A model generated the notes under the pieces. The model did not search any database and was not told where the DNA came from. It worked only from the letters and a program-made list of their open reading frames with translations. The position numbers were made by a program, and so were the translations under genes. DNA of 64,000 bases, taken from Cucumis sativus (taxonomy: Eukaryota; Streptophyta; Magnoliopsida; Cucurbitales; Cucurbitaceae). Where the stretch lies: the NCBI RefSeq assembly GCF_000004075.3, contig NC_026660.2, positions 26,291,498 through 26,355,497 on the forward strand. The letters run 5' to 3'. Of this stretch, positions 19,989 to 63,227 are shown piece after piece (within the stretch, counting starts at the first letter, position 1; each line of letters starts with the position of its first letter).

Positions 19989-21365
19989 TCAGTGTTGGGC
20001 CCATTGGATCTCCTTGATGTTTATGCCCTCCTTTACCATTTCATAAAGGGGACTCATTTCCCTCAATTTTTCCACCTGATGTACTGTCAACTCAACTGCT
20101 CGATCGATCTCAGCCTCCGTGGTGAATCTCCCAATGCCAAACCTGATTGAAGTGTGAGCCATGTCCTCATCCACTCCCAACGCCCTCAAGACATATGAAG
20201 GCTCCAAACTGGCGCTGGTGCATGCACTTCCGCTCGAAACAGCCACATCCTTCAATCCCATAAGCAAGCTTTCACCTTCAACATACGCAAATGACAAATT
20301 CAGATTACCAGGATACCGGTTCTCCATGCTACCATTCACCACAACTCCCTCAAGCTTCGCATTTATACCATTTAAGAGCCGTTCCTGCAATGCAGTAATT
20401 CGCTTATCATCATATTCCATTTCCTTCATCGCAAGCTCACAGGCTGCGCCCATTCCCACGACCAATGGGGTTGGCACAGTCCCACTCCTTATACCCCTCT
20501 CTTGTCCTCCTCCATTCATTTGGGGCTCAACTCGAATCCTCGGCCTCCTCCGCATATACAGAGCCCCAATACCCTTCGGTCCATAAATCTTATGTCCACT
20601 CAAGGACATCAAGCTCACATTCCACTTCTCCACATCAATCGGAATCTTCCCAAGAGCCTGAGCCGCATCAGTATGGAAGGGAACATTGAATTCTTTGCAA
20701 ATTTTCCCAATTTCCTCTACAGGCTGAATGACACCAATTTCATTATTAACCGCCATGACTGAAACAAGGCCAGTGTCGGGTCTAATCGCAGAGCGGAGCT
20801 TTTCCAAATCAACAATTCCATCAGACCCAACCGGTAAATAGGTAATCTCAAAACCCTCTTGCTGCAAATGTCTGCAAGAATCAAGAACGCACTTGTGCTC
20901 GGTCTGAGTGGTAATCAAGTGCCTTTTCTTATCTCTATAGAAATGCATAACCCCCTTGATTGATATGTTATTGGACTCAGTAGCTCCAGAGGTAAAAACA
21001 ATCTCCTTAGGCGAGGCACCGATAAGAGCAGCAACTTGGGAACGAGCCGTCTCAACGGCATGGTCGGATTCCCAACCATAAAGATGCGTACGAGAGTGTG
21101 GATTACCATAGCGCGAAATATAATAAGGAAGCATGGCGTCTAACACCCGAGGATCAACAGGGGATGTAGCTTGCATATCAAGATAAAGCGGTCGTCCAGA
21201 TATTTTAACACCTTTCATAGAAATCCCAGTTTCATCCTCATGGGGTTCCGACGGAGAAGCGGCGACAGCAGCAGCAGCAGTGGAGATAGGTCGGAAGCGC
21301 GAGATGGGGGAAGAGGAATTTGAGAGGGTTCGGCGTAAAGTGGAAGCAAGAATCTTGGAAGCCAT
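19989..21365 (-). CDS. NFS1: Mitochondrial cysteine desulfurase NFS1
   Basis: A single uninterrupted frame of 458 aa. The enzyme takes sulfur from L-cysteine, forming alanine and an enzyme persulfide, and supplies it for Fe-S cluster assembly on ISU in mitochondria. Residues 1-50 are rich in Ser, Arg and Ala and look like a mitochondrial presequence. The PLP-binding lysine lies in SGHK (K259), preceded by the HTDAAQ motif (His231). The mobile-loop catalytic cysteine is in SSGSACTS (C382). The active-site loop length and the C-terminal end (IKEIQWAQH) fit the IscS/NFS1 group rather than the plastid SufS-type enzyme. Arabidopsis NFS1 is also intronless. A G-box lies about 210 bp upstream. The region downstream to about 19700 is probably 3' UTR. 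Confidence 0.96.
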
Positions 21366-22861: not shown

Positions 22862-22898
22862 GGATTTTGAGGAAGGACTTTAAGGCTTGGAATTCATA

Positions 22899-25634
22899 AT
22901 GTTCAGGTCATCCCCTCGAAGGAGTCAGAGATCCAAAGGCTTTAAGGTAAAGCATGCTTTACAAATCTTTATTTTGCTTGGGGTTTGCGTCTGGCTCGTT
23001 TACCAAGTTCAGCATTCTCGTGGTAAGAAAGCTACTTTCAATGAGAGCACAAAACTTGATGAGGTTGTGAAATTAGGGAGGAAAGATCTCCATCCGAGAG
23101 TTGATGAAAACATCACAAGAGATGAGAGCCACAGAGAGGATGAAGAAGAAACCAGGAGTGAGCTGGAAAAGGGTATGTCTGGGAGTGATAATGAAGAAAA
23201 GGGGGGTGGGAATGATGAATTTCACGATCAACAAGAAGTTCAGGAGGACACTGAGAATAAAGATTTTGTGGTGGATATAGAGAAAGAGAGAGAGGAGAAC
23301 AGTGAGGTTAGGAAAGAAACAGAAACTGAAGAGAACAAAGAAATTGAAAACGAAAACAAAGAAAATGAAGAGATTAAAGAGAATGATAAGGAAAATGGAG
23401 AGATTCAAAAGAGTCAGAGTGATGAGAATGGAGAGGAGGGTAGAGGGGGAGGGATTGAAGAGAATGTAAACGAAGAAAGCAAAGAACACGGCAATCAAGA
23501 AGTGAATGGAAATGAAGAAAGCAAAGGACAGGAAAATCAAGACGTGAATGGAAACGAAGAAAGCAAGGTGCAGGAAAATCAAGGCTTAAGTGGAAACGAA
23601 GAAAGCAAAGAGCAGGAAAATCAAGACGTCAATGGAAACAATGAAAGCAAAGGGCAGGAAAATCAAGACGTCAATGGAAACGAAGAAAGCAAAGTGCAGG
23701 AAAATCAAGATGTAAATGGAAACGAAGAAAGCAAAGGACAGGAAAATGAAGACATGAATGGGAACGAAGAAAGCAAAGGGAAAGAAAATCAAGACGTGAA
23801 TGGAAACGAAGAAAGCAAAGGGCAGGAAAATCAAGACCAAAATGGAAATGAAGAAAGCAAAATACAGGAAAATCAAGACGTGAATGGAAACGAAGAAAGC
23901 AAAGGGCAGGAAAATCAAGATCAAAATGGAAACGAAGAAAGCAAAGTACAAGAAAATCAAGACGTTAATGGAAGCGAAGAAAACAAAGTACAGGGAAATC
24001 AAGACGTAAATGGAAATGACGAAAGCAAAGGGCAGGGAAATCAAGACGTGAATGGAAGCGAAGAAAGCAAAGGACTAGAAAATCAAGAGGTGAATGGAAG
24101 CGAAGAAAGCAAAGGACTAGAAAATCAAGAGGTGAATGGAAGCGAAGAAAGCAAAGGACTAGAAAATCAAGAGGTGAATGGAAACGAAGAAAGCAAAGGA
24201 CTGGAAAATCAAGAGGTTAATGGAAACGAAGAAAGAAAAGGACTGGAGAATCAAGAAGTGAATGGAAATGAAGAAAGCAAAGAACTGGAAAATCAAGAGG
24301 TGAATGGAAACGAAGGAAGCAAAGGACTGGAGAATCAAGAAGGGAATGGAAATGAAGAAAGCAAAGGACTTGAGAATCAAGAAGGGAATGGAAATGAAGA
24401 AAGTAAAGAAAAGGGGAATCAAGAAGAAAATGAAGGTAAAGATAAGGTAAATGAGATGCCGACTGAAGACAGGAAGGAAAATGAAAACGAGGAGAGAAGC
24501 CAGAGTAATGAGAGTGGAATGGGGGAGAAGAATGAAGAAAACAAAGAAAATGAAAATCGAGAGGAGAGGATTATTGAAGAGACGGATAAAAAAGATAGCA
24601 ACAATGGAGGAGAAAGAGAGAAGGAGAGTGGTGACAATGAGAAGGAAGAGACCAAGGAGAAGGACAGAGAAGATGTTAATGTAGAAACCAAAGAGGCCAT
24701 CAGTGAGACCAAGGAAGGTTCCCAAGATACCATGGAAAACAACGGTAACGAGAACAAGGAGGAGAACAACGAAAACGAGACAGTCAAGAAGGATGAACAG
24801 AAGGAAGTTAGTATTAAGAGTGTAGTTCCAGCTGAAGAACAGGTTCAAGATGGGAATGACAAGAGTAATAACGATGCAAGAGAAGCACAATACAAAGGGG
24901 ATAATGCTTCCAGTGCTGTACATGAGGATCAAAACACAGCCACTGGAAATGGGCAGGATGGTTTTGCAAAATTAAATGAGGTAGAGTCAGTTGAAAACAA
25001 AGAAAACTATGAATCTCAGCACAAGGATGCACAGACGATTCGCGAAGATGTTGATTCTGATAGAAATGAACCAGTCCAAAATGGAAGTGAAGCTGAAAAA
25101 AATGGAAACAACCAATCTGAGGTACCCGAAGAAGTGACTAATAACAATGAAGAGCAGCCAGTGTCCAAGGAGAATGACCAGCACGATTCAGTATCCCAAG
25201 AGTCGAATACTTCTGAGCCCGATCAATCAGATCGACAAGTGAGCCACAATGAAAATGAAAATGCTGTTCATAGCAACTCGAATGATGATTCTTCAGGTCA
25301 AAAGAATGACCATGATAATCCTACAGATATGTCAAACTCCCAAGAGAATGATGCATCATCAAACACTATTGAAGGTGCTGGTGCTGGACGGCATGACAAT
25401 GAGAACGTTGATCAAAGCAATGGAAATAATAGCGATCACACGAAAGAAAATTTTGATTCCCACAATGAGGGTGTCAGATTTTCTGATACAAAAAGCAGTG
25501 AGGATCAGGGTAATACTGGTGATTCTTCAGGATCTTCTTTACCTCAGGAGGAGAAGGATACTCTGACAGATTTGGATACCTTACCCGAAAGCAGAACAGA
25601 AGGGAATAACAAGGATGAAACAGCCACAGAGTGA
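22899..25634 (+). CDS. Membrane-anchored acidic protein with 14-residue tandem repeats
   Basis: A single coding exon of 911 aa, counted from the first ATG; an upstream in-frame TTG is not a likely start. The N-terminus is basic (MFRSSPRRSQRSKGFKVK). It is followed by one hydrophobic segment at about residues 20-37, then a very hydrophilic tail rich in Glu, Asn, Lys, Ser and Gly, which suggests a type II anchor with the rest in a lumen or outside. Residues about 199-506 are 22 copies of a 14-residue unit with consensus NQDVNGNEESKGQE. The flanks are Glu/Lys-rich and the last 250 residues are Asn/Ser/Asp-rich, probably disordered. Dicots have related proteins with the same basic N-terminus and single anchor, usually named only as uncharacterised or by low-complexity similarity. 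I do not know its function. Confidence 0.85.
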   Translation: MFRSSPRRSQRSKGFKVKHALQIFILLGVCVWLVYQVQHSRGKKATFNESTKLDEVVKLGRKDLHPRVDENITRDESHREDEEETRSELEKGMSGSDNEEKGGGNDEFHDQQEVQEDTENKDFVVDIEKEREENSEVRKETETEENKEIENENKENEEIKENDKENGEIQKSQSDENGEEGRGGGIEENVNEESKEHGNQEVNGNEESKGQENQDVNGNEESKVQENQGLSGNEESKEQENQDVNGNNESKGQENQDVNGNEESKVQENQDVNGNEESKGQENEDMNGNEESKGKENQDVNGNEESKGQENQDQNGNEESKIQENQDVNGNEESKGQENQDQNGNEESKVQENQDVNGSEENKVQGNQDVNGNDESKGQGNQDVNGSEESKGLENQEVNGSEESKGLENQEVNGSEESKGLENQEVNGNEESKGLENQEVNGNEERKGLENQEVNGNEESKELENQEVNGNEGSKGLENQEGNGNEESKGLENQEGNGNEESKEKGNQEENEGKDKVNEMPTEDRKENENEERSQSNESGMGEKNEENKENENREERIIEETDKKDSNNGGEREKESGDNEKEETKEKDREDVNVETKEAISETKEGSQDTMENNGNENKEENNENETVKKDEQKEVSIKSVVPAEEQVQDGNDKSNNDAREAQYKGDNASSAVHEDQNTATGNGQDGFAKLNEVESVENKENYESQHKDAQTIREDVDSDRNEPVQNGSEAEKNGNNQSEVPEEVTNNNEEQPVSKENDQHDSVSQESNTSEPDQSDRQVSHNENENAVHSNSNDDSSGQKNDHDNPTDMSNSQENDASSNTIEGAGAGRHDNENVDQSNGNNSDHTKENFDSHNEGVRFSDTKSSEDQGNTGDSSGSSLPQEEKDTLTDLDTLPESRTEGNNKDETATE
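23493..24416 (+). repeat. Coding minisatellite, 22 x 42 bp
   Basis: Twenty-two head-to-tail 42-bp units encode the 14-residue repeat; a degenerate 23rd unit follows at 24417. Units fall in two blocks. Units 1-13 mostly read K(G/V)Q(E/G), and units 14-21 mostly read KGLE or KELE with NQEV or NQEG. This points to separate expansions. Because 42 is a multiple of three, copy number can change without breaking the frame. Confidence 0.95.
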
Positions 25635-34975: not shown

Positions 34976-37490
<2,515 letters not shown>

Positions 37491-47882: not shown

Positions 47883-50800
47883 TCACGTATCTCTATTCTC
47901 CTTCGAGAATGATGGTTGCTGATGCTCGGTTAAGATCCGGACAACTTCCCGCATCGTGGGACGCTTTGGAGCCTCTTCTTCAGTGCACAGCATGGCGACA
48001 TTGAGCACGTGGATTACTTCGTCGAGGGGGACTGAGGAGAGTCTTTGATCGACGATTTTATGTATTTCTTCCTTTTTTGTGTCTGTCATGTTTCTAACCC
48101 ATTGAACTAAGTCGACACTGTTGCTTAGTTCTATATCTGGATTCCTACCGCTAACAAGTTCCAAGAGAACGACACCGAAACTATATACATCCCATTTCTC
48201 GTCGGCATTCTGTGTGTAGGTGTGTTCTGCAAGAATATCACATTCTTTAGTTTCTATTAGAAGTATTCAAAGTATGAGCAATTCAGACATTCTTCAAGAG
48301 AGATCCAAATATGGAAAGTTAATACTACCTACCAAGCTTCTCAAGGATTGTCCAAGATCATATGCTATAAAAACGTTCCGATTCTAAATGAATATTAATT
48401 AGCTCTGGCGACTGTCATACCTGGCTCAGTAGCTGAAATATCCGATGCCCCTGAATCTTGTAAGAACTTCGCAAGCCCGGAATTAGCAATCTGAGCATCA
48501 AAGTTGGTGTCAAGCATAATGTTGTTCGACTTCACATTTCGATGAACAATGGGCGGTGAGCAATGGTGGTGAAGATAGCAAAGTCCATTCGCAGTTCCAA
48601 TGGCTATCTTGTACCTTGTCTCCCAGAGCAAGTGACCTCCTTTCTTGCCATGAAGAACCTCATAGAGACTCCCATTAGGCATGTACTCAAATACCAAAAG
48701 ATTAGTTTCATGGTTTGAACAGAGACCCAATAATCTAACGATGTGACGGTGTCGAATCCTCCCAAGAGCTTGTATCTCAGCATCGAACTTGTTGTCACGA
48801 GTACACCCATTGCTCGTCTTTGGAAGCCTTTTCACAGTGATCTGATCACCACTTGGCATCACTCCTGTATATACTGTGCCATAACCTCCCTTTGCAATAA
48901 GATTTTCCTTTTTAAGGCATTCCAATATCTCATCAACCGAGAAGCCAAGCCGTTGGAAGGCTGTTAATCTCCATCCTCTAGACTCCCTTGCTCTCTTGAA
49001 CCACCCAACTTTGAAGATCAATCCAACTGTCACTGCAACTAAGCAAAAGAAAAACCCAAAAGCTAGCAGGAGCCTGAGAGGAGTTGAGAGAGATCCTTTC
49101 GTATGTTCTTGTTGATTGCTTGCAAGAAGCCCATCTTTGCAAGGCCCCAAATATGGTCCACAGAGATAAGGATTGCCTAAAAATGATGTGTAATTGAAGT
49201 ACCCAAATTGCCCAGTTCCCAGAACCAAACCAGAGAGATTGTTATATGAAAAATCAACAGAGGTTAGGCTCTGCATATTAACTATGGAAGCAGGAATAGG
49301 CCCAACTAAGTGGTTTCTTGAGAGATTCATATAATTCAATAATTTCATGTTGGTAATATGGTTAGGAATTTCACCAGAAAGCTCATTTCCACTAAGATCA
49401 AGAAATATCAAGTGTTTACACTCACTTATCTCCGGCACAATTGAACCAGAGAACTTATTCTGGCTGAAATTTATTCGAGATAGTTGCTGTAATCTCCCAA
49501 TATTTGAAGGAATCTGACCAGAAAACTTATTCCGATCAAGAAGAAGCTTCTGGACAGCCACAAGGCTGCCTATGGTTGGTGGCAAGGATCCAGAGAGCAT
49601 ATTATTCGATAGACTTATCTGAAGAAGATTAACTGAGACTGAATTGATAATCGGAAGTTCGCCGGAGAGAAAATTGTCATGCAAATCAATTTGAGTGATA
49701 TTTGGCAAACCCAAAAGCCTCCTTGGAATTGATCCATTAAGAGCGTTGCCCCACAGAAGTATACGTTTAAGTGAAAGACAGTTCCCCAACGATTCTGGAA
49801 TCAAACCAGACAAGGAATTGTCCATGGCGATCAAAACTTCAAGCTTATTCCCATGGCAGATTTCAGGAGGAATCGTACCTGTCAGGTGGTTGAAAGCAAG
49901 GTCGAGAGTCCGAAGCATTCCATTCTTCCCCAAATTTCGAGGGATGGAACCAGTGAAATTGTTGTTCCATAATTGCAATATTTCCAGCTTAGGGAGGTCG
50001 GCCATGAACTCCGGTATCTCTCCGGAGAGCTTGTTGTCGAAAAGTTGCAATAGCCTCAAGTTCTTAAACACTGCAAAAGAGATGGGTATTTCACCAACAA
50101 GCATATTGCATGATATATCCAACTCTTCTATGCTCTTCAATCCTCCAAGCTCCATCAACGAACCAGACAGAGCATTTTGTTGAAGGTACAGTTCAGTGAG
50201 CTTCTGTAACTTTCCGAGCTCCCGTGGAAACTTTCCACTCAACCCACAGCTCGCGGCATCCAACCGAACTAACTCCGACAAATTCCCTATCGTCGCCGGT
50301 ATTCCACCAACAAATGTGTTGTAGTAACCAATGAAAAGCTCCCGAAGCTTCGTCAAGTTTCCGATAGCCGGCGGTATTGGACCTTCGAGGTCATTGCCGT
50401 GAATCGCCAGAAACTCCAAGAACTGCAACCGCCCAACCTCCGGAGGAATCCGACCGGTAAAGAAATTACCCCCAAGATGCAAATAGCGGAGGTTGGGCAT
50501 TTCAGTGACCACTCTGGGGAAATCACCGGTCAGATTATTATTATAAACATCAAGAACCTGCAAGTTCTTGAGCCGCGAAAACTCGCTAGGAATGGACCCA
50601 TTAAGGACGTTACTAGAGAGATTAAGAAGCTGGAGAGACGAAAGGGAGGCAATCTCTGGTGGGATACCGCCGAAAATTTTGTTGAGGCCGAAGGAAACAT
50701 TAGTGAGAAAGCGAAGAGAGGAAATGTGAGGGGAAATGGTGGCGGTGAGGTCAAGGGAAGAGAGGTCTAAGGCAACGACGTGGCGGCGGGAGTCGCATGT

Positions 50801-51031
50801 GACACCGAGCCAGGAACAGTGGGCGTGAACGGCGGCAGGGTTCCAGGAGGAGAGAGAAGAATGAGGGTCGTCAGAGATGGAGGATTTGAGAGAGAGAAGA
50901 GCTTGGGATTCGGGAAGGAAAGCAGAGAAAGAAGGGGAAAAGTGAAAATGGAGAATCAGAAAAACAAGAAGAAGAAGCCATATTTGTTTGCATATAATAT
51001 TTGAAGGTTGAATATTGGTGACACTGATCAT
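47883..51031 (-). CDS. BAM/CLV1-class LRR receptor-like protein with a predicted pseudokinase domain
   Basis: Two exons (51031-48421, 48226-47883) join in frame to 984 aa. The order is signal peptide (about 1-37), LRRNT with HCSWLGVTC, about 20 LRRs, a closing Cys pair (LCGPYLGPC), one membrane span ([20 protein letters not shown]) and a kinase domain. The architecture and the single intron match BAM1-type receptors for CLE peptides and the neighbour at 59.8-63.2 kb. The kinase keeps the ATP-binding Lys734 (VKRLP) and the alpha-C Glu752, but the catalytic HRD reads HRN (N832) and DFG reads NSG (N850). The glycine loop starts AKGGYG and the activation segment up to Pro-Glu is 8 residues shorter than in the paralogue. 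It is therefore very likely catalytically dead. The frame is otherwise intact, which argues against a plain pseudogene. The start used is the first ATG; an upstream in-frame TTG with a poly-Glu run is 5' UTR. Confidence 0.88.
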
Positions 51032-51102
51032 TTCTTCTTCTTCTTCTACTTCTGCTTCTTCTTCTTCTTCTTCTTCTTCTTCTTCTTCTTCTTCTTCTTC
51101 TT
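51032..51102. repeat. (TTC)n / (GAA)n microsatellite in the 5' UTR
   Basis: About 71 bp of TTC units with a few interruptions end directly at the start codon of the BAM-like pseudokinase gene. In the transcript it is a GAA run filling most of the leader. Confidence 0.9.
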
Positions 51103-51178
51103 TTTGAATTCTGATTTTCAGAGGAAGGAGAGGGAACTTAAAGACAAAACTACACTCACTCACAATTCCCGTTTTCAA

Positions 51179-51186: not shown

Positions 51187-54100
51187 TTACTCAAAATATA
51201 TATATAAAAAAAAAGGTGAATTTAGTACATGAAAATTAAAATATTTTAGGGTATTGTATTCTTAGAAGGTGGAAATTGGAATCTTATCCTATCAAAATCA
51301 TTTCATATCACTTTGCTTCAATATACTCTTAACCAATAACCTCAACTTTAAAATAAGCAACCAATCAATAATCCTTTACTTTTCTTATTTCCTTTTTCTA
51401 AGTCTTCACGTTCCAATTCTATTCACTTTTTAATACAATTTAAACTCTATTGTTTCTGAGATCAAGTGAGACACACAGAAATATTATCAAGTATAATTCC
51501 TTACTGTTCACAGAAAGATTATAAACTATATATTTACTGTTATTGTGTTATCGTTCTATTAGAGTTGCCTCTAACACATAGTAATAATAGTAATAATAGT
51601 AAATTTGAAAAAGATCCATGATTCTATGTAATTGTATTGGAACTTAAATTGGCATTCACATCTGCTTAAAAGGAAATTAAGATAAGGAGTAGATTGAATT
51701 AGTAAATAAAGTGAGTTGACATCTATTTCTTTATCATGCGTGTTTGGGAGATTAACATGAAAAAAAAGGTACATATAGGAACTTAAAAACAACAAAACAC
51801 AAATATATATCAATCGGTTCACTGTTAATTCCTGCTTGTAAAAAACTTTAAAAAAAAAAGATATTTCACATTTAATTTCAATTTAGTTTATTATGGTTTA
51901 GGAAAATTAAATATATATTTTAGTTGAAAATAAAAAGCAAATAAAATATACTTTTTTAAAAGAACAAAAGTTGAAGTTTAACATTTGAGTGGATTACTTG
52001 AAATCAAAATAAATGCATTTTAGAATGTAATCAACTAATTTGACAAATTTTGATATATTTGCAAATTTTTTTAAATTGTGTTATATATTTAATTAATTTG
52101 AATTTAATTGTTAAATTTGCAACAATTCATTTTTCTTTTTCTTTTTCTAAAAAACAATAAAAAAAAGCAAATAAACAGGAAGCATACTCCAAAATCAAAA
52201 CTTAACCTTAAAAGAATAAAAATTAAAGGATGAATATGAAACACGTTAAAAGATTGTTTTTAAAATCGTCACAAAAGTTGGAATTTAAATTATGTTGTTT
52301 ATTTAAGAACAAAGGACATTTATAGGGTTTGAGTTCGTTTGAACTGATTTGAGAGGAAAAAAAATTTAAACTATTGTGAAAATTATTTAAAATACATTTG
52401 AAAGACTATTTTAAATAATTAACAAATTCTCTAATTTTTTCTAAAAGGATATATATTTTTTTAATTATAGAAAATGTATTTCAATAAATATTTTAGTTTA
52501 TTAAGTTAGATTTGAAAATGACTTATAAAATAATAATGATGATAAATTAAAAAAAGAAGAACACAATTAGACATAATAACTTTTAAGCTGACCTATGGAG
52601 TAATTTTGTTCAGAAATAAATAGATGGGCAGAATTTAAAGTAACAAAATAAAGAAAAGGAAATGACAAAAGGAGACAAAGAAAAAGTAAAAACAAAAAGA
52701 AAGAAAATATGGAAATAACGTAAGAGATAAAAGAGAGGGTAAAAACAAGAAACTTTCATTACTCAATAGTGATAGAATATATTTCCAACAAAAATAAACT
52801 AATCCAAAATTCTCACAAAACGCCTCAATTATTGTATTTATAGATAGACATTAGAAGTTATCTTGAATTCAATTTTCGTGTTCGTCTACTTTTTTCGAAC
52901 GATCAATAAAATATGGTAAAAATGACGTTTTTTCTTACAACAAAGAAGTTATAACTACATCCAATATACAAAATGGTTTCTTCCAAATCTCTCCTTCCTT
53001 TTTTTTTTTTTTATTCTCCTCCTTCTCACATATTCACTAAATGGAGGGATGAGGTTAAGAGAGTATCAAAAAAGAAAAATATAAAATAAGCAATTGAAAA
53101 GTGGAAAAATGTTAAGCCACAATTTGTATTTTGCGACAAATTATTTTGGTATTATGTGATTTAATTGAGTGGTACAAATATAGCTTTAGTTTATAATGCA
53201 TCTGAAAAATGGAAGAAAAAGACTTGACAAGACCCTTTTAGCAAAAACTTACTACAATTATTTAGTACCTTAATTCAATGATTTTGCCATATCTTACTAA
53301 AATACATGAATATGTAATAGAAACTTATTTGTTGCTTACAAAGACTCAAAGTCAAATTCTTTCCTTTATTGATGTTGTTAGCACTTCTCAAAGGCCCATT
53401 GGACTCAACAGCCTTAGCCTTTCACCCCAAGCCATCATCAAACTCAGGTTATAATAATTTGAAGTATATGGCTTTTTTTACAACATAAGTGCATCTTATA
53501 TACGTACGTATAGAGAAAAAAAAAAAAAATCAATTGTTCACAACTGTTTCACTACATTATCATGGAGCAACAATTTTAATTATATGGAACCATTATTATT
53601 AGTACATTGCTTTAATTTTACTTGCATTACATCTACATAAGAAAATGGAAAGTTGAAGTTGAATAAATGACAAAATAGTATACTATATAATAACTTCATA
53701 ATTGTATGTAAATAAATTATGAGAAAAATGTAAATCTTTTTTTTTTTTTTTTTTTGACGGAAGAGAAAACATGTTAAGTAAATTACGTTGTCCAGCTCAA
53801 CTCCCATACCCACAATGGGCTCCCTTTTCTTTTCCTATTGGGCTTTAGTTTTCTCAAGGTTCAAATCTCAACATCAGGTTGAATCAACGGCCCGTCAAAT
53901 TAAGCCCACTTCCAACAAGGAGACCAAAAGTATTCATCCTTCGATATAAATATACTAATAAATTGACCAATTTAATTATTAAAATATAAATATAAATTAA
54001 AAAACCATTAACACAAAAAAAAAAAAAGGTAAATTGAAATGATAGTGTTGACCAATTAATCTAGTTTTATTTAAAAGTAATTATTGCTTAGTATGAAATA

Positions 54101-54334
54101 AATGTTAGTCAAAGAAGTGATATAGTAGGTAGGCGAAGTAGCATGAGTTGTTCAACATTTTTCAAGACAACTATTTTTATTACAAGAGCTAAGAGTGTAG
54201 CTCGTTTAAATCATAATATTTAATTTTGCAACTTCAATGTTTTAATTTTTTACCCAATCAACTATGAAATAAAATTTTTATTTTACATTTTATAAAATTA
54301 TTAAATTCATTGCCATCATTCTATTTAACGTTTT

Positions 54335-54356
54335 TATATATATATATATATATATA
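54335..54356. repeat. (AT)n microsatellite
   Basis: About eleven AT units within AT-rich spacer DNA. Confidence 0.85.
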
Positions 54357-54719
54357 AAATGGAAGTTGTTACATTTTGCAAGACAATTAAATAAGATAGA
54401 GAATATGAATTTATGAGCAATACTTTAAATGAACTATATTGTGTCAGTTGACTTAGTATTAAATGCAAAGCGCATAACGTGCTAAGAAAGGAGATATAGA
54501 ATAGACATTTTTAATTGTAGCAAGATAAGAAAAACAAATGAATTAAAAGAAAGGGAAAACAAAAAAAATAAAAGTCCGAAGAGAAATGATGAACATAATT
54601 AAAGGAAAATAGTTGCCATTTGTTAATGTTTCCAATCATGTCTTAAGCTCCCCTTTCATCCATCAAATTCAATCATGCTGCTGCTGCATACACACATGCA
54701 TGTATTATAAATCATTCCT

Positions 54720-54745
54720 CTCTTTTCTTTTCTTTTCTTTTCTTT
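54720..54745. repeat. (TTTTC)n microsatellite
   Basis: About five pentanucleotide TTTTC units in tandem. Confidence 0.8.
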
Positions 54746-57700
54746 GAGGGATTTAATTATTTGATTTATATTTCTCCTTATGATTTAGACCAGTGGGCCC
54801 CATTTGTTACAATCTCCATGATATCTGCTCTCATTATATACTTTATACATTATGGTATTTAATTCATCTAAAACTTTATATATGCTTTATTTTATTTTAA
54901 TTGCTATGTCAATGTGTATTGATGCTGTTAAGTCAAATTTAGAGGGAAAAGGAAAAGGTTATTTCAAGGTTCAATAATTATCCTTTCTTCTTTTTTCAAA
55001 AGGGACAGCATATAATGAAGACCCATTTCTCTCTTCCATTTGCCTTTTCATCCCTTTCTTCATAACTTTTATTCTTCTTCTTTTTCTCCTTTTAATTACT
55101 TGTTAATGAAAGATAGGACTCTATCATTTAACTGAAAAAAAAAAACCTAAACTATAAGTTTGTAGATAAAACCGTATTAAACTCAAAGTCCATTAGTATT
55201 TAAGAGGAATTATTATGGATAAATTTATAAATTTTAGATAATCTTTATTTTCTAAAATACATTTTTAGTTTCTAATAGGATACCAAATTTTACTATTTTA
55301 GATTTAATAGTTCGATAAGCGGACTTTTGGAATCTTAAATCAAACTTCACGAGGGAAACAAAAGGCAACACATTTTTTGTTCACAAACCATTTTAAAAAG
55401 TGAATTTCGCCATATGAGAAAATTATAGGAAAAAGAAACATTATATTAAAAAAAAAAGATGAAAAAAAAAAGGGGATAAGATCAACATCAATCAATATTA
55501 AATAGTGTACGTAAATCAAATAATTAATATGATAAGTGTTTAATAGAGAATATTGTTAGCTAAATTAAATGAATTTAGTCCTTTTTTGTTGTTGTTGTTG
55601 GAAATAAAAATGTGAGTTGATCTGTGTCTTTCACTTTCATGTTTTGATTGCCCATTCTGATTTGATAATAGTATGAAACCAACAAATATTTCATTTTCAA
55701 GAAAATATATATATTCCTATCCATGTTTTTTTACTTTTGACTGAAAGAGCAAAAAAAAAAAGGAAAAAATATTGTATTATAAACCATATAATATGGAATG
55801 AATTGATAAGCTTGAATGAATAACATAGTTGAAAGAGCATCCTATGACAAATTAAATATTCCATATCCATTCTTTTCAGCAGATTAACCCAATTAGCTTA
55901 ACCTTACCCTATACAAATATACTATTTATTTATTTTTATTACTTTTTAAAAATATTTTTCAAATACTATGAAAATCTCAAAAGGAAAAAAAAAAAGCATT
56001 TCAAATTCTATGTAGTACTTCTCAAAATCTCCATAACATGTAAGGAATTTCAATAATATATGTTGAGATCATGCCATTATTTTGTGAATCTTAAAAAAGA
56101 AAAACTAAGATCTCCAAATGAGCAAGTGACATGCAAAGATTTGATCAAAACAAACATAGGATACTTTTTTTTTTATCAATAATATATGTTTAATTAGTCA
56201 AGTATTTATATTATAATTAATTACTTCTTCCTCTCTAATGATTGGATAACAATCAATATCTTGTTCTGATGTTTTGTTTAGGATAAGCTAGTGTTAATAA
56301 TGTTTTTTATAGTTACCAAAATAAAGGTAATTTAATTGTTATAGGTTTATGTTAGTAAGTAAGTATGTGAGGCAGGCAGTTGAAATCACTTGTAACTCTA
56401 TTGTAAGGTAATATTATATAAAGTTGGAGTCCAAGAATTGATATCCATTTTAGGGGTTTGGGCATTAAATGTTAGGGCATTGAAATAATGAGATGGCAAC
56501 GTGACACCTCGCACCCATGTGAGTTTTGCTTCGTATTCAACAATCACTTCAATTATTCTAAAAACAAAACCAAAATTTTCCCTTTTAATTTTTTTTATTG
56601 CTATTTTCGAGGCCATCAAAACCAAATCAAAGCAAAACAATCAATTTTTAAAAATGCATAAAACTTTGTTTCTCTTTCCCAAAATAAATAATAATAAATT
56701 TGCTTTATGCCATTTCTGGAAAAATAACAAATAAATGAGGATAACAATAGTAAGTACTCTGTGAACTCAACTTAGAGATTAAAGGAAGAAAAAAACTTTT
56801 AAATCTTATTTTAATTCATAAATATTTTATTTTACTTTAATTTCTAAATCTTAAAAAACGTTCATTAGTCGATAAACTTTCAAATTTTAATTTTAAATTA
56901 GTTGTTAAATAATCACTTTGCTTTCAATATTTTGACCGAATACAATTTTATTTGTATACAAATTTTTTATGCCTTTAGTTCAGGATATTTAGTGATTCTT
57001 TAAGTTTTTTTCTCTTTCCTCTCATTTTTGTTAGAGGATCGTTGGGAATTATTGTGAAAATATTTATCAATTTATTTTGTATATATTTGTGCTTATATTT
57101 ATTTTACTTTATCATGGATTTTAACAACGACTTCTATTCTAATTTATTTATTTTATTTTATTTAATCTTCTTCCAATAAATTTGCTTCAAAAATCCAATT
57201 TGAAAAAAGAAAATAGTAAAGAGATGTGAGAGATTTGAATTTTGGGAAAAACAAATTTAGTTTTTAGGTTTATTTGATAAACGTGTTTTTATGTTTTTAT
57301 GTTGACATAAATAATAAATTAACAAACTTTATTGGTTATTTATCCATATAAATAATATAATAAATTTAAACCATAATAATTAGAATATAAAAAATCACAT
57401 TATGATTGTCCTGAAAAGTAAATATTTAAGTTTTTGGAGAGTAAAACATACATTTTTTAAAAATTAAAAATCACTATATAACAAGATACAAAATGTACCA
57501 AAATAGAATAAAAAAAAAGATTGTTTGAAGAAATGATATTATAAAAGAGAGAAGATTTTGTTGGGTATTGGGCATATGATAACAATAATGGCAGGATTTT
57601 GAACCATATTGATGGGTGTTTTTGTTTGAATTGTGTCCAAAAGTTGTTTGTCATTTTAAGGTCATTTTCTTTCTTAATAATCTCATATATCTTTTCCCTA

Positions 57701-58415
57701 ACTTCATTCAAAACTTGCTTTTGGAGATTCTTATTTCCTTATTTTCTTAATCAAGTGGGGGACTCCAAATTTCAAAAACCAACCCAATTTGAATTTAATA
57801 CGATTTTTCTTTTTTTTTTTTACTTATTTACTACTTTTGGGTACAATCCCTCAATTTTCTAAGTTTGGTTTTGATTGATTGTGGTTTGTAGCTACCAATT
57901 TTAAACGCATATATCTCCTTGTGTAACAAAATGAGCCTACATTTTGATCTCTTTTGAAATTGAGTGTTATGTTTTTGTATATTACTGTGTTTGAATGACA
58001 CCCCTAAACCCTAGTAGATGACTGCTTTTAGTTAAAATTACATTTCTTCAACTTTTGAATGCTCCTAAGTTTAATTATCATATAACTTTTGTGTAAATTA
58101 CTTTTGCCTTTTCTTCAATTACTCTTTGTCTTCAAGTCCGTATTTCTTTTACTTAGGGTGAATTATGGAAAGAGCCGTGGAAGATTCAATCAACATTTAT
58201 TTCTCACCCACGAAAACTCCCATTAATTTACCTTCATTATGACATTAAAATTATTGTCTTCAAATATAACAAAATGAACCAAAATTAGACGGACATTGTT
58301 TGTGTAGTTTTATTATTAATCCAACTTTAAAATGTATATTTTTAAATTAATCAAACTATGCTTTCATAACAATAGTGAGGTAATGACATCCAGAAATATA
58401 ACTTTAAGAAAAACG

Positions 58416-58439
58416 TTTTTTTTTTTTTTTAAAAAAAAA
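58416..58439. repeat. Oligo(T)-oligo(A) inverted repeat
   Basis: A T run of about 15 is followed directly by an A run of about 9. It can form a hairpin or a rigid bent segment. Similar shorter copies occur elsewhere in the spacers. Confidence 0.6.
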
Positions 58440-58755
58440 GAAGAATACATTTTTGTGTTTCCACTTAATTTCTTGTTTGTTTTTCGATTTATTTTAGTTG
58501 GTGGGAATTAGAGAGAGAATGGTAACTTTTTTGCGTAAACCAAAGTTTTTGAATATGGCAGACAAGATTCCTTTGTTCCTTTTAATAAACCAAAGTTTTT
58601 GAGTTGCTAACATTTACATATCTTTATACGAATTAGAATTTATTTAAATGTTTTTCTTATAAATTATATACTTTTAGAATTAAATATGAGAATGCATAGT
58701 ATTAAATAAGAAGAGAAAAAGAGTTAGTAATTAAGTAGCAAAAGAATGATTTGAA

Positions 58756-58777
58756 AGGGAAGGGAAGGGAAGGGAAG
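58756..58777. repeat. (GGGAA)n microsatellite
   Basis: About four GGGAA units in tandem inside an otherwise AT-rich spacer. Confidence 0.8.
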
Positions 58778-59793
58778 GAGTGGGTGTTTTTGTCATTTTG
58801 TGTTTTAAATTTTCTTTGTTTAAAGAATTTTTGGTTGTACTTTAGATTTGGTAAATTTGCCCCCACAGAGTTACCAAATTTCAATTGGTATCCCCACACC
58901 GCCACTTTCTCTCCTCTTCTCTCACACCCTTTCTTCAATTAACCTTTAATTCCCTCATCTCAATTATTACATCTTTAATGACAATTACCCAACCTCTAAT
59001 CTAAATCCCAAACACAATCACATTAACTCAATCCTATCTCTATATCTTTTACCAACATTGCCATCATTTCTATTATGTTATAGGAACCAAATTGGAACTT
59101 ATTTTATTATTTGAGGTGATGAGTTATTTGATTGGGACGAAACAACTAATAGAACTTACTTTGATTTGAAATGGTTGTGAATTATGTGCAAAATCCTTGT
59201 TTTGTTTATGAGAGATGGAGTGTAAGAAAAGGAACATGAAAGAGCAACAACTAAAACAAGACACCATTCAATTAAATAAATACTGAAAAGACAGTCACAA
59301 TATCTTGGTCATTTGGCATTATTTACAATACAATGGCATGTGTGGCAATCCTTAAATGTAGGGTCCAAATCCAGCTCAAACACACTCCTTTTTTCTTTCT
59401 TTCTTCCCTTCATTTTCAAATTTCCTGAACCAAAAGCAAACAAAAAATACTGCCTTTTGCTTTTTAATTTACTGTCCAATAGATTCAAAAGTGGTTCAGT
59501 CAGTCAGAAAAAGAAGAAGATGGTGGAAATGCTTCAACATTAAAAAAGAACAATCCCATACGAAAATACCCTCCCCCAATAAACCCAACTGGTCAACTGT
59601 ACATGAAAGAAAATAAAATTAAAAAAAAGAAAAAGGAACTTTTGAACATTAGTACCATAACATTAAAAAAAGCCAAACCTAATCCCCCCAAAAGAAAAAT
59701 AAACGACATCGCAGGTACAAGAGCCAAAGCTTTAATTGTTTGGACCTTACGAAAGACAGTAGATAGAGACACTACCAACCCCAACTAAGTTGT

Positions 59794-62700
59794 TCAAATG
59801 CTAAGAAGATCTGGTGGCGGTTGCTGTTGCTGATGTTCTTTTTTGTTCTTGGTTCCTGTTGTTGGAAGGTCTAAATCTGCAGCTGTTGGTGGTGGGGGTG
59901 GTGACGAGTTGGGGAGTGTTGAATCTCCTCCTTGTTTTGAACTTGGTGGCTGTGGAATCTCCGATAGGATTTGGATCACTTCCCTCATTGTTGGGCGCTC
60001 CACTGCCTGTTCCTCCACACATAGCATTGCAACGTAGAAGACGTGCATCACTTCGTGGAGTGGCACGGAGGAGAGCCTTGGGTCAAGGATTTTCACTACC
60101 TCTTCCTTGTTTGAGTCTGTCATTTTTCTAACCCATTGAACTATGTCGACACCATCCCCAAATTCTCCAACGGGTTTTCTACCACTGACAAGTTCCAACA
60201 GGACAACTCCAAAGCTATATACGTCACTCTTCTCATCAACTTTTAGTGTGTAGGCGTATTCTGAAAGAAATAAGCATAATCTCAAGAATCAGAATCATGG
60301 AATTTTAGCTTCTAGAAAATCAACAATTTTCACACCATTGATCATCCAACTTTGGACTTGAAGTGGGAAGCAATTCATAATAGATTAAACATTGAAGAGA
60401 ACTTTGTCAATTAGAAGTAGGATGCAGTCAAAAACACTATGATTCGTAAATGTACTTGCAAAGCTGAAAACCACTAATGTTCTCACAACATGGCACAAAA
60501 CTAAGCAATATTCTTCACAAACTCTAGATCATACATACGAGTCAAAGAAGAATAAAGCTAAAACACATCAAAACAAGAGTTAAGATTCAAAATTTAAGTC
60601 TTTGGAAGAAAAATTCAAGGTTGGAATCATATACCTGGGGCAATATATCCATAAGAACCAGCAATGGCAGACATGCACTCAGAAGTGCCAGAATCCTGTA
60701 AGAACTTGGCGAGGCCAAAATCCGCAACATGAGCTTCAAAATTAGTGTCAAGAAGTATGTTGTTTGATTTAACATCTCGGTGAACAATGAGTGGCGAACA
60801 ATCATGGTGGAGATAGCAAAGGCCTTTAGCAGCTTCAATAGCAATCTTATACCTTGTATCCCACTGAAGGTGACCTCCTTTTTTGCCATGAAGAACTTCC
60901 CCTAAGCTCCCATTAGGCATAAACTCATAAATCAAAAGATTAGTTTCATGGTTTGAACAGAACCCCAATAGTCTTACAATATGTCGATGTCGAATTCTCC
61001 CAAGAGTTTGTATCTCAGCATTGAATCCATGATCATGGGACGATCCCCGGCTCATCGCCGGCAGCCTTTTGACGGCGACCTGGTCACCACTTGACATGGC
61101 CCCTTTATAGACAATTCCAGCCCCACCCTTTCCAATAATATTATCTTCTTTCAAGCAATCAAGAACATCATCAACTGTGAAATCTAAGCGTTGGAAGGAT
61201 GTTAATTTCCAAGCCCGAGACTCACTGGCTCTCTTCAAAGATCGAGCTTTGATGATGGCAGCAACTGCAAATGCAATGGAGCAAAGAAGCAGACCAATTA
61301 CAAGGAGGAGCTTGAGGGAAGCAGAGAGAGGGCCCTTCACATGTTGTTGGTAATTACTATTGGCAACCCCATCTTTGCATGGTCCCAAATATGGGCCGCA
61401 GAGATCAGGATTTCCGAGAAACGATGTGTAATTGAAGTAACTGAATTGCCCAGTTCCCGGAACTAAACCGGAGAGGTTGTTGTATGAGAAATCCACGGAG
61501 GTTAAACTCTGCATGCTGGCTATGGTAGCAGGGATTCCACCGACTAAATGGTTTTTTGAGAGATTCAAGTAATTCAATATCCTCATACTGGTAATCTCGT
61601 TTGGAATTTCTCCTGAGAGCTGGTTTCGGCTGAGATCGACGAAGGTTAGAAGCTTGCATTGGCTAATCTCCGGCGCGATTGGACCCGATAGCATGTTGCT
61701 GCTGAAATCTATCTTCGAAAGTTGCTGTAACCGCCCGATTTCAGGTGGGATTTGACCGGAAAACTTGTTTCCGTCGAGGAGTAATTTCTGGACGCCGGAG
61801 AAGTTGCCAATTGTTGGCGGAATCGACCCAGTGAGTCGGTTGTTGGAAAGACTAATCTGGCCGAGATTCAATGAGATTGAATCGGTTATTGGGAACTCGC
61901 CGGAGAGGAAATTATCTTGTAACTCCACCTGAGAAAGCTTGGGAAGACTTAGAAGCCCCTTTGGAATGGATCCATTGAGAAAATTTTCTCCCATACGAAT
62001 ACGATTAAGGGAAACGCATTTGCCTAGCGACTCTGGGATTGGACCAAACAAGAAATTGCTCAATGCGATCAGAATTTGAAGCCGATTACCAAAACACATA
62101 TCGGGAGGAAGAGTTCCAGTCAGCTTATTGGAAGAAAGGTCCAATATCTGAAGCATTCCGTTCTTCCCCAAGTTCTGTGGAATGGCTTCCGTGAAATTAT
62201 TCTCCCATAACTGCAACACCTCCAGCTTCGGCAAGTCGCCAATAAAGGAAGGAATCGCCCCATGTAACTTGTTTCTAAACAGATTCAACAGCGTCAAGTT
62301 CTTCAACTGGGCGAACGAGACGGGAATCTCACCCACAAGCATATTGTTCGACAAATCCAACGATTTCAAACTGTTCAACTGTCCAATCTCCGGTGTCAAT
62401 GGCCCAGATAGAGCATTAACTTGTAGAAACAAAGTATCGAGATTCTGCAGCTTTCCAAGCTCCGGAGGAATCCGGCCAGACAGTCCACAGTTCGCAGCGT
62501 CCAACCGTACCAACTGTGACAAATTCCCAATCTCAGCTGGAAGACCGCCGTCGTAAGCGTTGAAGTAGCCAATGTAAAGCTCACGAAGGTTCGTAAGGTT
62601 TCCGAGCTCCGGAGGTATCGAACCGCTAAGCTCGTTACCCGAAACCGCCAAGTACTCCAAAGACTGCATCCGACCCACTTCCGGCGGGATCCGTCCGGCA

Positions 62701-63227
62701 AAGAAATTTCCTCCCAAATGCAAATGACGGAGGCCCGACATTTGAGTGACCACAATGGGGAAATCTCCAGTCATATTGTTGTTATACAAATCAAGAACGT
62801 GAAGATTCTGCAGCTGCGAAAACCGTGAAGGGAAGGACCCATCGAAAACATTATTAGACAAGTTAAGGAGGCGAAGTGAAGAGATTGAAGAAAGCTCCGG
62901 CGGGATGGGACCAGAAAACTCATTGGCAGCGAGAGAAAGATTAGTGAGAAATCTTAAAAAAGCAACATCAGGGGAGAGAGAACCAGAAAGACCGAGAGCA
63001 GTGAGATCTAGGGCAGTGACATGGCGACGAAGATCGCAAGTGACCCCAAACCAAGTACAATGACTGGTAGAAGCGTTCCAGGAAGCAAGTGAGGATTTGG
63101 GGTCGCCGGTAATGGAGGTTTTGAGGGAGAGAAGAGCTCGGTACTCAGAAACACGAGCAGAAAGAGAATGATGAATGTGGAGTTGGAGGTGAAGAAGACA
63201 AAGGAGAAGAAGAAGAAGAAGACGCAT
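59794..63227 (-). CDS. BAM1: BAM1-like LRR receptor kinase (CLAVATA1 class)
   Basis: Two exons (63227-60635, 60260-59794) join in frame to 1019 aa; Arabidopsis BAM1 is about 1003 aa. A hydrophobic signal peptide (about 1-23) is followed by LRRNT with HCTWFGVTC, about 21 LRRs, a closing Cys pair (LCGPYLGPC) and a membrane span ([20 protein letters not shown]). The Ser/Thr kinase is complete: GKGGAG loop, Lys720, Glu738, HRD Asp818, DFG Asp836, and a full activation segment to APE. The tail is Pro-rich and ends [11 protein letters not shown] receptors sit in the plasma membrane and bind CLE peptides to control meristem size, anther layers and vascular tissue. The RD-type catalytic loop suggests activation-loop phosphorylation. 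The intron position inside the activation segment is identical in the neighbouring paralogue. Confidence 0.96.

Follow-up and report, generated by a model that had tools for sequence, protein, structure and literature searches.

A tandem duplicate of a BAM1-like receptor in cucumber is probably a full-length pseudokinase with a non-enzymatic role in receptor signalling

When a plant receptor kinase loses its catalytic residues while its reading frame stays open, is the gene on its way to becoming a pseudogene, or does the product still act in signalling? One gene of a tandem pair in a 64-kb stretch of cucumber DNA (the window analysed here) raises this question. An earlier note had read it as a BAM-type receptor selected for a non-catalytic role, perhaps as a decoy for CLE peptides. 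Our analysis suggests that its product is probably a non-enzymatic modulator of receptor signalling, and not the relic of a dead gene.

Structure and descent of the tandem genes

The gene, hereafter the pseudokinase gene, spans 47883-51031 on the minus strand and, according to the gene model, encodes a product of 984 amino acids in two exons. Exon 1 (48421..51031, minus strand) covers a signal peptide-like stretch, an N-cap, about 22 LRRs, a membrane span and the kinase from the N-lobe to the activation segment, as judged from the gene model, Pfam and hydropathy. A 194-nt GT-AG intron (48227..48420, minus strand), located at the Glu codon of PE, separates it from exon 2 (47883..48226, minus strand), in which the gene model places the remaining kinase C-lobe, a shortened C-tail and, at the end, the stop codon. 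The earlier note had the junction (48421/48226) right and omitted exon 2 from the extent of the gene. It had also described the frame and splice sites as intact, and we agree: the spliced sequence is a single open frame of 984 codons, and no disabling stop, frameshift or broken splice site was found in the gene.

The tandem neighbour (59794..63227, minus strand; exon 1 63227..60635, intron of 374 nt, exon 2 60260..59794) is an intact BAM1-like receptor kinase of 1019 amino acids. Pfam detects LRRNT_2, LRRs and a protein kinase domain in both genes, with a Pkinase model score of 118.6 bits for the pseudokinase compared to 155.5 bits for the neighbour. The signal peptide-like stretch and membrane span of the pseudokinase are calls from hydropathy only. 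Nineteen regular LRRs were found in the neighbour by regular expression and three irregular repeats were added by eye, which gives the count of about 22; the roughly 20 LRRs, signal peptide and membrane span proposed earlier are in keeping with these results. All eight ectodomain Cys residues common to the neighbour and two further relatives (L029 and L030) are present in the pseudokinase, and its intron position is the same as in these three genes. Its C-tail is approximately 40 amino acids shorter than that of the neighbour. For exon 1, structure prediction from a two-row alignment (the pseudokinase and the neighbour) gave a mean pLDDT of 60. Most 10-residue blocks between about residues 130 and 590 reached pLDDT 63-91 with the predicted strand/helix rhythm of an LRR solenoid, while the predicted kinase part was mostly below 50, so the prediction carries information for the LRR part alone.

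Directly next to the assumed ATG of the pseudokinase gene lies a (GAA)n run with some 24 repeats (51032-51102). The ORF is open upstream through this run to a TTG at 51178; the run would be leader sequence, or would encode poly-Glu if a non-ATG start were used. Elsewhere in the window, a 915-aa ORF on the plus strand (22887-25634) contains a 42-nt unit repeated about 23 times (Asn/Glu-rich 14-mers) and has no Pfam match at E 0.001, a 458-aa ORF on the minus strand (19989-21365) has an aminotransferase class V domain and by eye resembles an NFS1-like cysteine desulfurase, and an exon on the minus strand (34976-35644) encodes a tubulin C-terminal domain.

Relatives were taken from the same genome (226.6 Mb, 88 contigs), in which the window occupies C6:26291498-26355497. 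The search returned 36 matches, which gave 20 loci; besides the window genes, 14 were taken and 12 were modelled, so that with the neighbour there were 13 relatives for comparison. Modelling demanded an intact PE and alphaF motif, so any other pseudokinase with either of these broken would have escaped it. L025-L028 were set aside, as were the 16 matches that had no locus, and L037 and L040 (exon 1 only) were omitted from trees and counts. HRD and DFG are present in L040. For L037 (G000:C2:1697500-1706500), a relative with near full-length ectodomain and N-lobe, a catalytic loop was not found in the 9 kb taken; this gene may have additional exons or a broken kinase.

The tandem neighbour is the closest relative of the pseudokinase in its own genome (67%; 67.8% identity over 930 aligned residues). 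Next come two genes at 50% and 48%, which we take to be CLV1/BAM3-like, and the other near full-length matches are at or below 41%. The tandem pair groups together with ultrafast bootstrap values of 100 for the ectodomain, 61 for the kinase and 100 for both jointly. When a provisional sequence of Arabidopsis BAM1 was added, as a lead only, the two genes still paired (91 ectodomain, 89 kinase, 97 joint), and identity to that sequence was 79.6% for the neighbour and 64.4% for the pseudokinase. If this grouping holds, the duplication would postdate the divergence from the Arabidopsis line, with the neighbour as the conserved copy. By descent the pseudokinase gene is closest to the BAM/CLV1 clade of LRR-RLK subfamily XI, and it has the architecture of that clade (N-cap, about 22 LRRs, membrane span, kinase, intron at the PE site).

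A DNA search of the genome for further copies gave five matches, of which one was the gene itself, two were separate parts of the neighbour and two, both weak, fell on the L035 and L030 genes. In the 64-kb window, tblastn matched only the gene itself and the neighbour. In the region separating the two genes (51200-59790), the listed ORFs reach at most 87 aa, a search in which short exons could escape. A scan with exon 1 of the neighbour found no relatives in viral contigs.

Lesions in the kinase domain

The kinase domain differs from all 13 modelled relatives at several of its defining motifs. In the G-loop, AKGGYG (48878..48895, minus strand), the first Gly has become Ala; this Gly is invariant in the 13 relatives. 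HRN replaces HRD (48536..48544, minus strand) and NSG replaces DFG (48476..48484, minus strand), and both HRD and DFG are kept in 13/13 relatives, confirming the earlier reading that both catalytic aspartates are gone. The activation segment (48421..48443, minus strand) had been described as eight residues shorter, which corresponds in the DNA alignment to an in-frame loss of 24 nt (approximately IAGSYGYI) before PE. A search of the intron and exon 2 for a remnant of the deleted stretch found none. Further changes relative to the 13 relatives affect VAVK (Ala to Thr), the hinge (Tyr to F), the catalytic loop (an M), APE (Ala to Glu), the Tyr after APE (to H) and the Trp of KWDVY. The beta3 Lys (the ATP-binding Lys, correctly reported as intact) is present, and the alphaC Glu, the HRD Arg, the catalytic-loop Lys and Asn, the APE Glu, the alphaF Asp and the RPTM Arg are kept as well.

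We compared these changes to the columns that are invariant in the 13 relatives. The pseudokinase breaks 14/59 such columns in the kinase domain, where each relative breaks 0-4, and 3/65 in the ectodomain, where relatives break 0-5. All of the broken kinase columns fall in nucleotide, catalytic or activation motifs (14/29, compared to 0/30 elsewhere; Fisher p=6e-6), with the motif and other classes drawn from general kinase knowledge after the breaks were seen. Removing the five deletion columns leaves 9/24 motif columns and 0/30 others broken (p=2e-4).

Judged on HRD, DFG and a full activation segment, the protein lacks the features of a catalytically competent RD kinase. From its sequence it qualifies as a receptor-like pseudokinase, in which catalytic residues have been lost and the kinase domain and frame retained. 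It shares its ectodomain, membrane span, intron position and overall kinase domain with BAM1/BAM2-type CLE receptor kinases of LRR-RLK subfamily XI, and differs from them in lacking the HRD Asp, the DFG Asp and Phe, a G-loop Gly and part of the activation segment, in its altered RxR motif and in its short C-tail.

The earlier note had drawn a parallel to CORYNE (CRN), and part of it stands. Four kinds of lesion are common to both proteins, namely those affecting the HRD Asp, one G-loop Gly, DFG and a truncated activation segment, as CRN is described in PMC4983110. However, the gene is not of the CORYNE type, being of BAM1-type descent with a full LRR ectodomain, whereas CRN is described as a membrane span plus a kinase (PMC9459042), and it is by this description that CRN is set apart. 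Since the pseudokinase arose from a BAM1-type receptor and CRN is described there without an LRR ectodomain, the likeness appears to be convergent.

Substitution rates and selection

In LG+G4 trees of 14 genes, branch lengths for the pseudokinase and the neighbour were 0.321 and 0.153 in the ectodomain and 0.397 and 0.026 in the kinase. Relative to the neighbour, the pseudokinase thus evolved about 2-fold faster in its ectodomain and about 15-fold faster in its kinase. A four-taxon branch codon model with a synonymous clock gave omega values of 0.207 (pseudokinase) and 0.092 (neighbour) for the ectodomain, and 0.244 and 0.020 for the kinase. Under the clock, omega=1 on the pseudokinase branch was rejected for both domains (2dlnL 151.5 ectodomain, 57.7 kinase), as was an omega equal to that of the neighbour (14.8 and 51.8). 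With the clock removed, synonymous sites were near saturation; the rejection of omega=1 was then only weak (2dlnL 7.5 and 4.6), and an omega shared with the neighbour could not be rejected (0.22 and 0.93). Pairwise estimates, 0.16-0.26 in the ectodomain and about 0.135 in the kinase, are of similar size to the codon-model values. Averaged over the branch, the estimates under the clock show both domains under purifying selection. In the ectodomain, 34/190 LRR scaffold positions and 105/265 other positions had changed (p=6e-7, both tandem branches pooled).

The contrast between a kinase accelerated about 15-fold and an ectodomain accelerated about 2-fold would suit a receptor-like protein in the making, in which function rests solely with the ectodomain and membrane span and the kinase is vestigial; CLV2 and TMM are the comparison for such a protein. 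However, the frame continues open through the kinase, for which the clock model still puts omega at about 0.24, and none of the 30 invariants that lie outside catalytic and activation motifs has changed, which is unexpected in a vestige. We regard this reading as improbable.

An early pseudogene, in which constraint was first relaxed and function was lost recently, with stops yet to accumulate, is a more serious alternative. An ectodomain omega about twice that of the neighbour speaks for it, as do the lost Arg of the RxR motif, the activation-segment deletion and the short C-tail; the Arg loss and the three broken ectodomain invariants are also compatible with decay. In neutral simulations of the CDS (400 runs each), the probability of no stop was 0.63 at 0.005, 0.15 at 0.02, 0.04 at 0.03 and 0.0025 at 0.05 substitutions per site, so a loss of function within about 0.02 substitutions per site may leave an open frame, at a probability of about 0.15. 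A neutral period that would explain the kinase replacements is another matter: for the kinase part alone, the frame stayed open with a probability of 0.01-0.02 at 0.15 neutral substitutions per site (2000 runs). Given how rarely frames survive at 0.05 substitutions per site and above, prolonged neutrality of the gene is unlikely; in the clock codon model the pseudokinase branch spans about 2 neutral substitutions per codon. Furthermore, if change were uniform at the observed 30%, finding 0/30 non-motif kinase invariants changed would have a probability of 2e-5. Random decay would hardly be expected to hit HRD once, DFG twice and the G-loop once, and to delete part of the activation segment, yet spare the 30 other invariants. 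We therefore consider early pseudogenization unlikely, but not negligible.

Taken at the sequence level, the data fit a selected non-catalytic receptor better than an old pseudogene. The same proposal in the earlier note gains from omega values well below 1 in both domains (under the clock), from an old open frame, and from breaks confined to catalytic, nucleotide and activation motifs.

The peptide groove and a possible role in receptor complexes

No chain named BAM or CLV1 was found in the PDB among 40/40 ectodomain matches (E 1e-50) or the best 60 of 82 kinase matches (E 1e-25), and since the matches listed include no such chain, TDR was used to define peptide contacts. TDR D303 was counted among these, which is our assumption. 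Together with the TDR positions given in PMC5383425 and PMC4979064, this made 24 positions, which were mapped by alignment. At those contacts that are identical in the neighbour, L029 and L030, the pseudokinase keeps 11/14 and breaks three; the kept ones include the equivalents of TDR D255, D303, S305 and W353. However, conservation at contacts is no higher than elsewhere in the ectodomain (3/14 broken compared to 21/208, p=0.18).

One of the changes concerns the peptide clamp. RIL (49757..49765, minus strand) replaces the RxR motif formed by R421/R423 in TDR and R409/R411 in the neighbour. The second Arg, equivalent to TDR R423, is Leu in the pseudokinase and Arg in 11/13 relatives. The two genes with another residue in the R411 column, L036 and L038, have D and Q there, with HRD and DFG intact. 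Loss of the second Arg alone need not end function, because these two genes with intact catalytic motifs also lack it.

In TDR, Arg423 is reported to help hold the C-terminal residue of the peptide (PMC4979064). According to the same source, R423A weakens the binding of TDIF, and with R421A/R423A leaves no longer respond, although the double Arg mutant lost only 3-fold in binding by ITC in a second report (PMC5383425). With the clamp altered, ordinary CLE binding by the pseudokinase is probably weakened or shifted in specificity. This bears on the idea, put forward in the earlier note, of a simple decoy that binds and sequesters the CLE ligands of the neighbour. The 11/14 conserved contacts are in its favour, and the modest 3-fold effect softens the argument from the clamp. 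The decoy is nonetheless weakened by the Leu at the position of TDR Arg423 and by contacts conserved no better than other positions, and we see it as possible, of low probability and not favoured.

The explanation that we put first, at about an even chance of being correct, is that an old BAM1-type tandem duplicate became a full-length receptor pseudokinase that modulates receptor complexes without phosphorylating. A BAM1-type CLE receptor would have been duplicated in tandem. One copy has lost nucleotide-binding, catalytic and activation-segment residues, while its ectodomain, membrane span and non-catalytic kinase scaffold are retained, with purifying selection as an average over the branch. 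The product would reach the plasma membrane, associate there with BAM/CLV1 receptors or with co-receptors of these, and modulate such complexes without phosphorylating. By analogy with known systems, its most likely role would be that of a natural dominant-negative or scaffold partner of BAM/CLV1 receptors. The likeliest effect would be dampening, as with strong clv1 missense receptors acting on BAMs, followed by CORYNE-like scaffolding. Because the peptide clamp is altered, an effect through complex formation is more likely than the soaking-up of CLE peptides. Allosteric activation of a co-receptor, as in EFR, is less likely, since that mechanism, as described, requires activation-loop phosphorylation and the loop is cut here.

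Strong clv1 alleles are reported to interfere with BAM receptors (PMC5371295), and the pseudokinase resembles them in being a receptor of the CLV1/BAM class that would not signal normally. These alleles are laboratory mutants (e.g. clv1-8, ectodomain D295N), whereas the loss in the pseudokinase affects the kinase, arose naturally and is old or fairly old. BIR2/BIR3 (PMC10317173), STRUBBELIG (PMC4983110) and DRIK1 (PMC7158045) are likewise described as receptor-like proteins with inactive kinase domains. They belong to other subfamilies, and the BIRs have a short ectodomain, in contrast to the full peptide-receptor ectodomain seen here. Approximately 10-20% of eukaryotic kinomes are reported to be without activity (PMC7158045). 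Plant receptor pseudokinases are thus already known and common; a selected one with a full BAM ectodomain would be new as far as the literature titles and abstracts listed show, among which there was no description of a BAM pseudokinase or of this gene.

More tentatively, and with less confidence than in the general model, we propose that the gene encodes a lineage-specific, natural dominant-negative CLE receptor. The convergent CORYNE lesion set, the selected ectodomain and the changed clamp would then let it antagonize its neighbour, or act as a retuned partner to it, in the stem-cell or vascular signalling of cucurbits.

If the gene is kept by selection, it would offer, beside an active sister, a natural experiment on the parts of a CLE receptor that still count when catalysis is gone. 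The CLAVATA-pathway pseudokinase CORYNE is without an ectodomain, in contrast to the full-length BAM-class receptor here. CLAVATA signalling is reported to shape flower and fruit form in the cucumber lineage (PMC11186068). If our reading is true, this crop lineage would hold a natural counterpart of the dominant-negative clv1 alleles.
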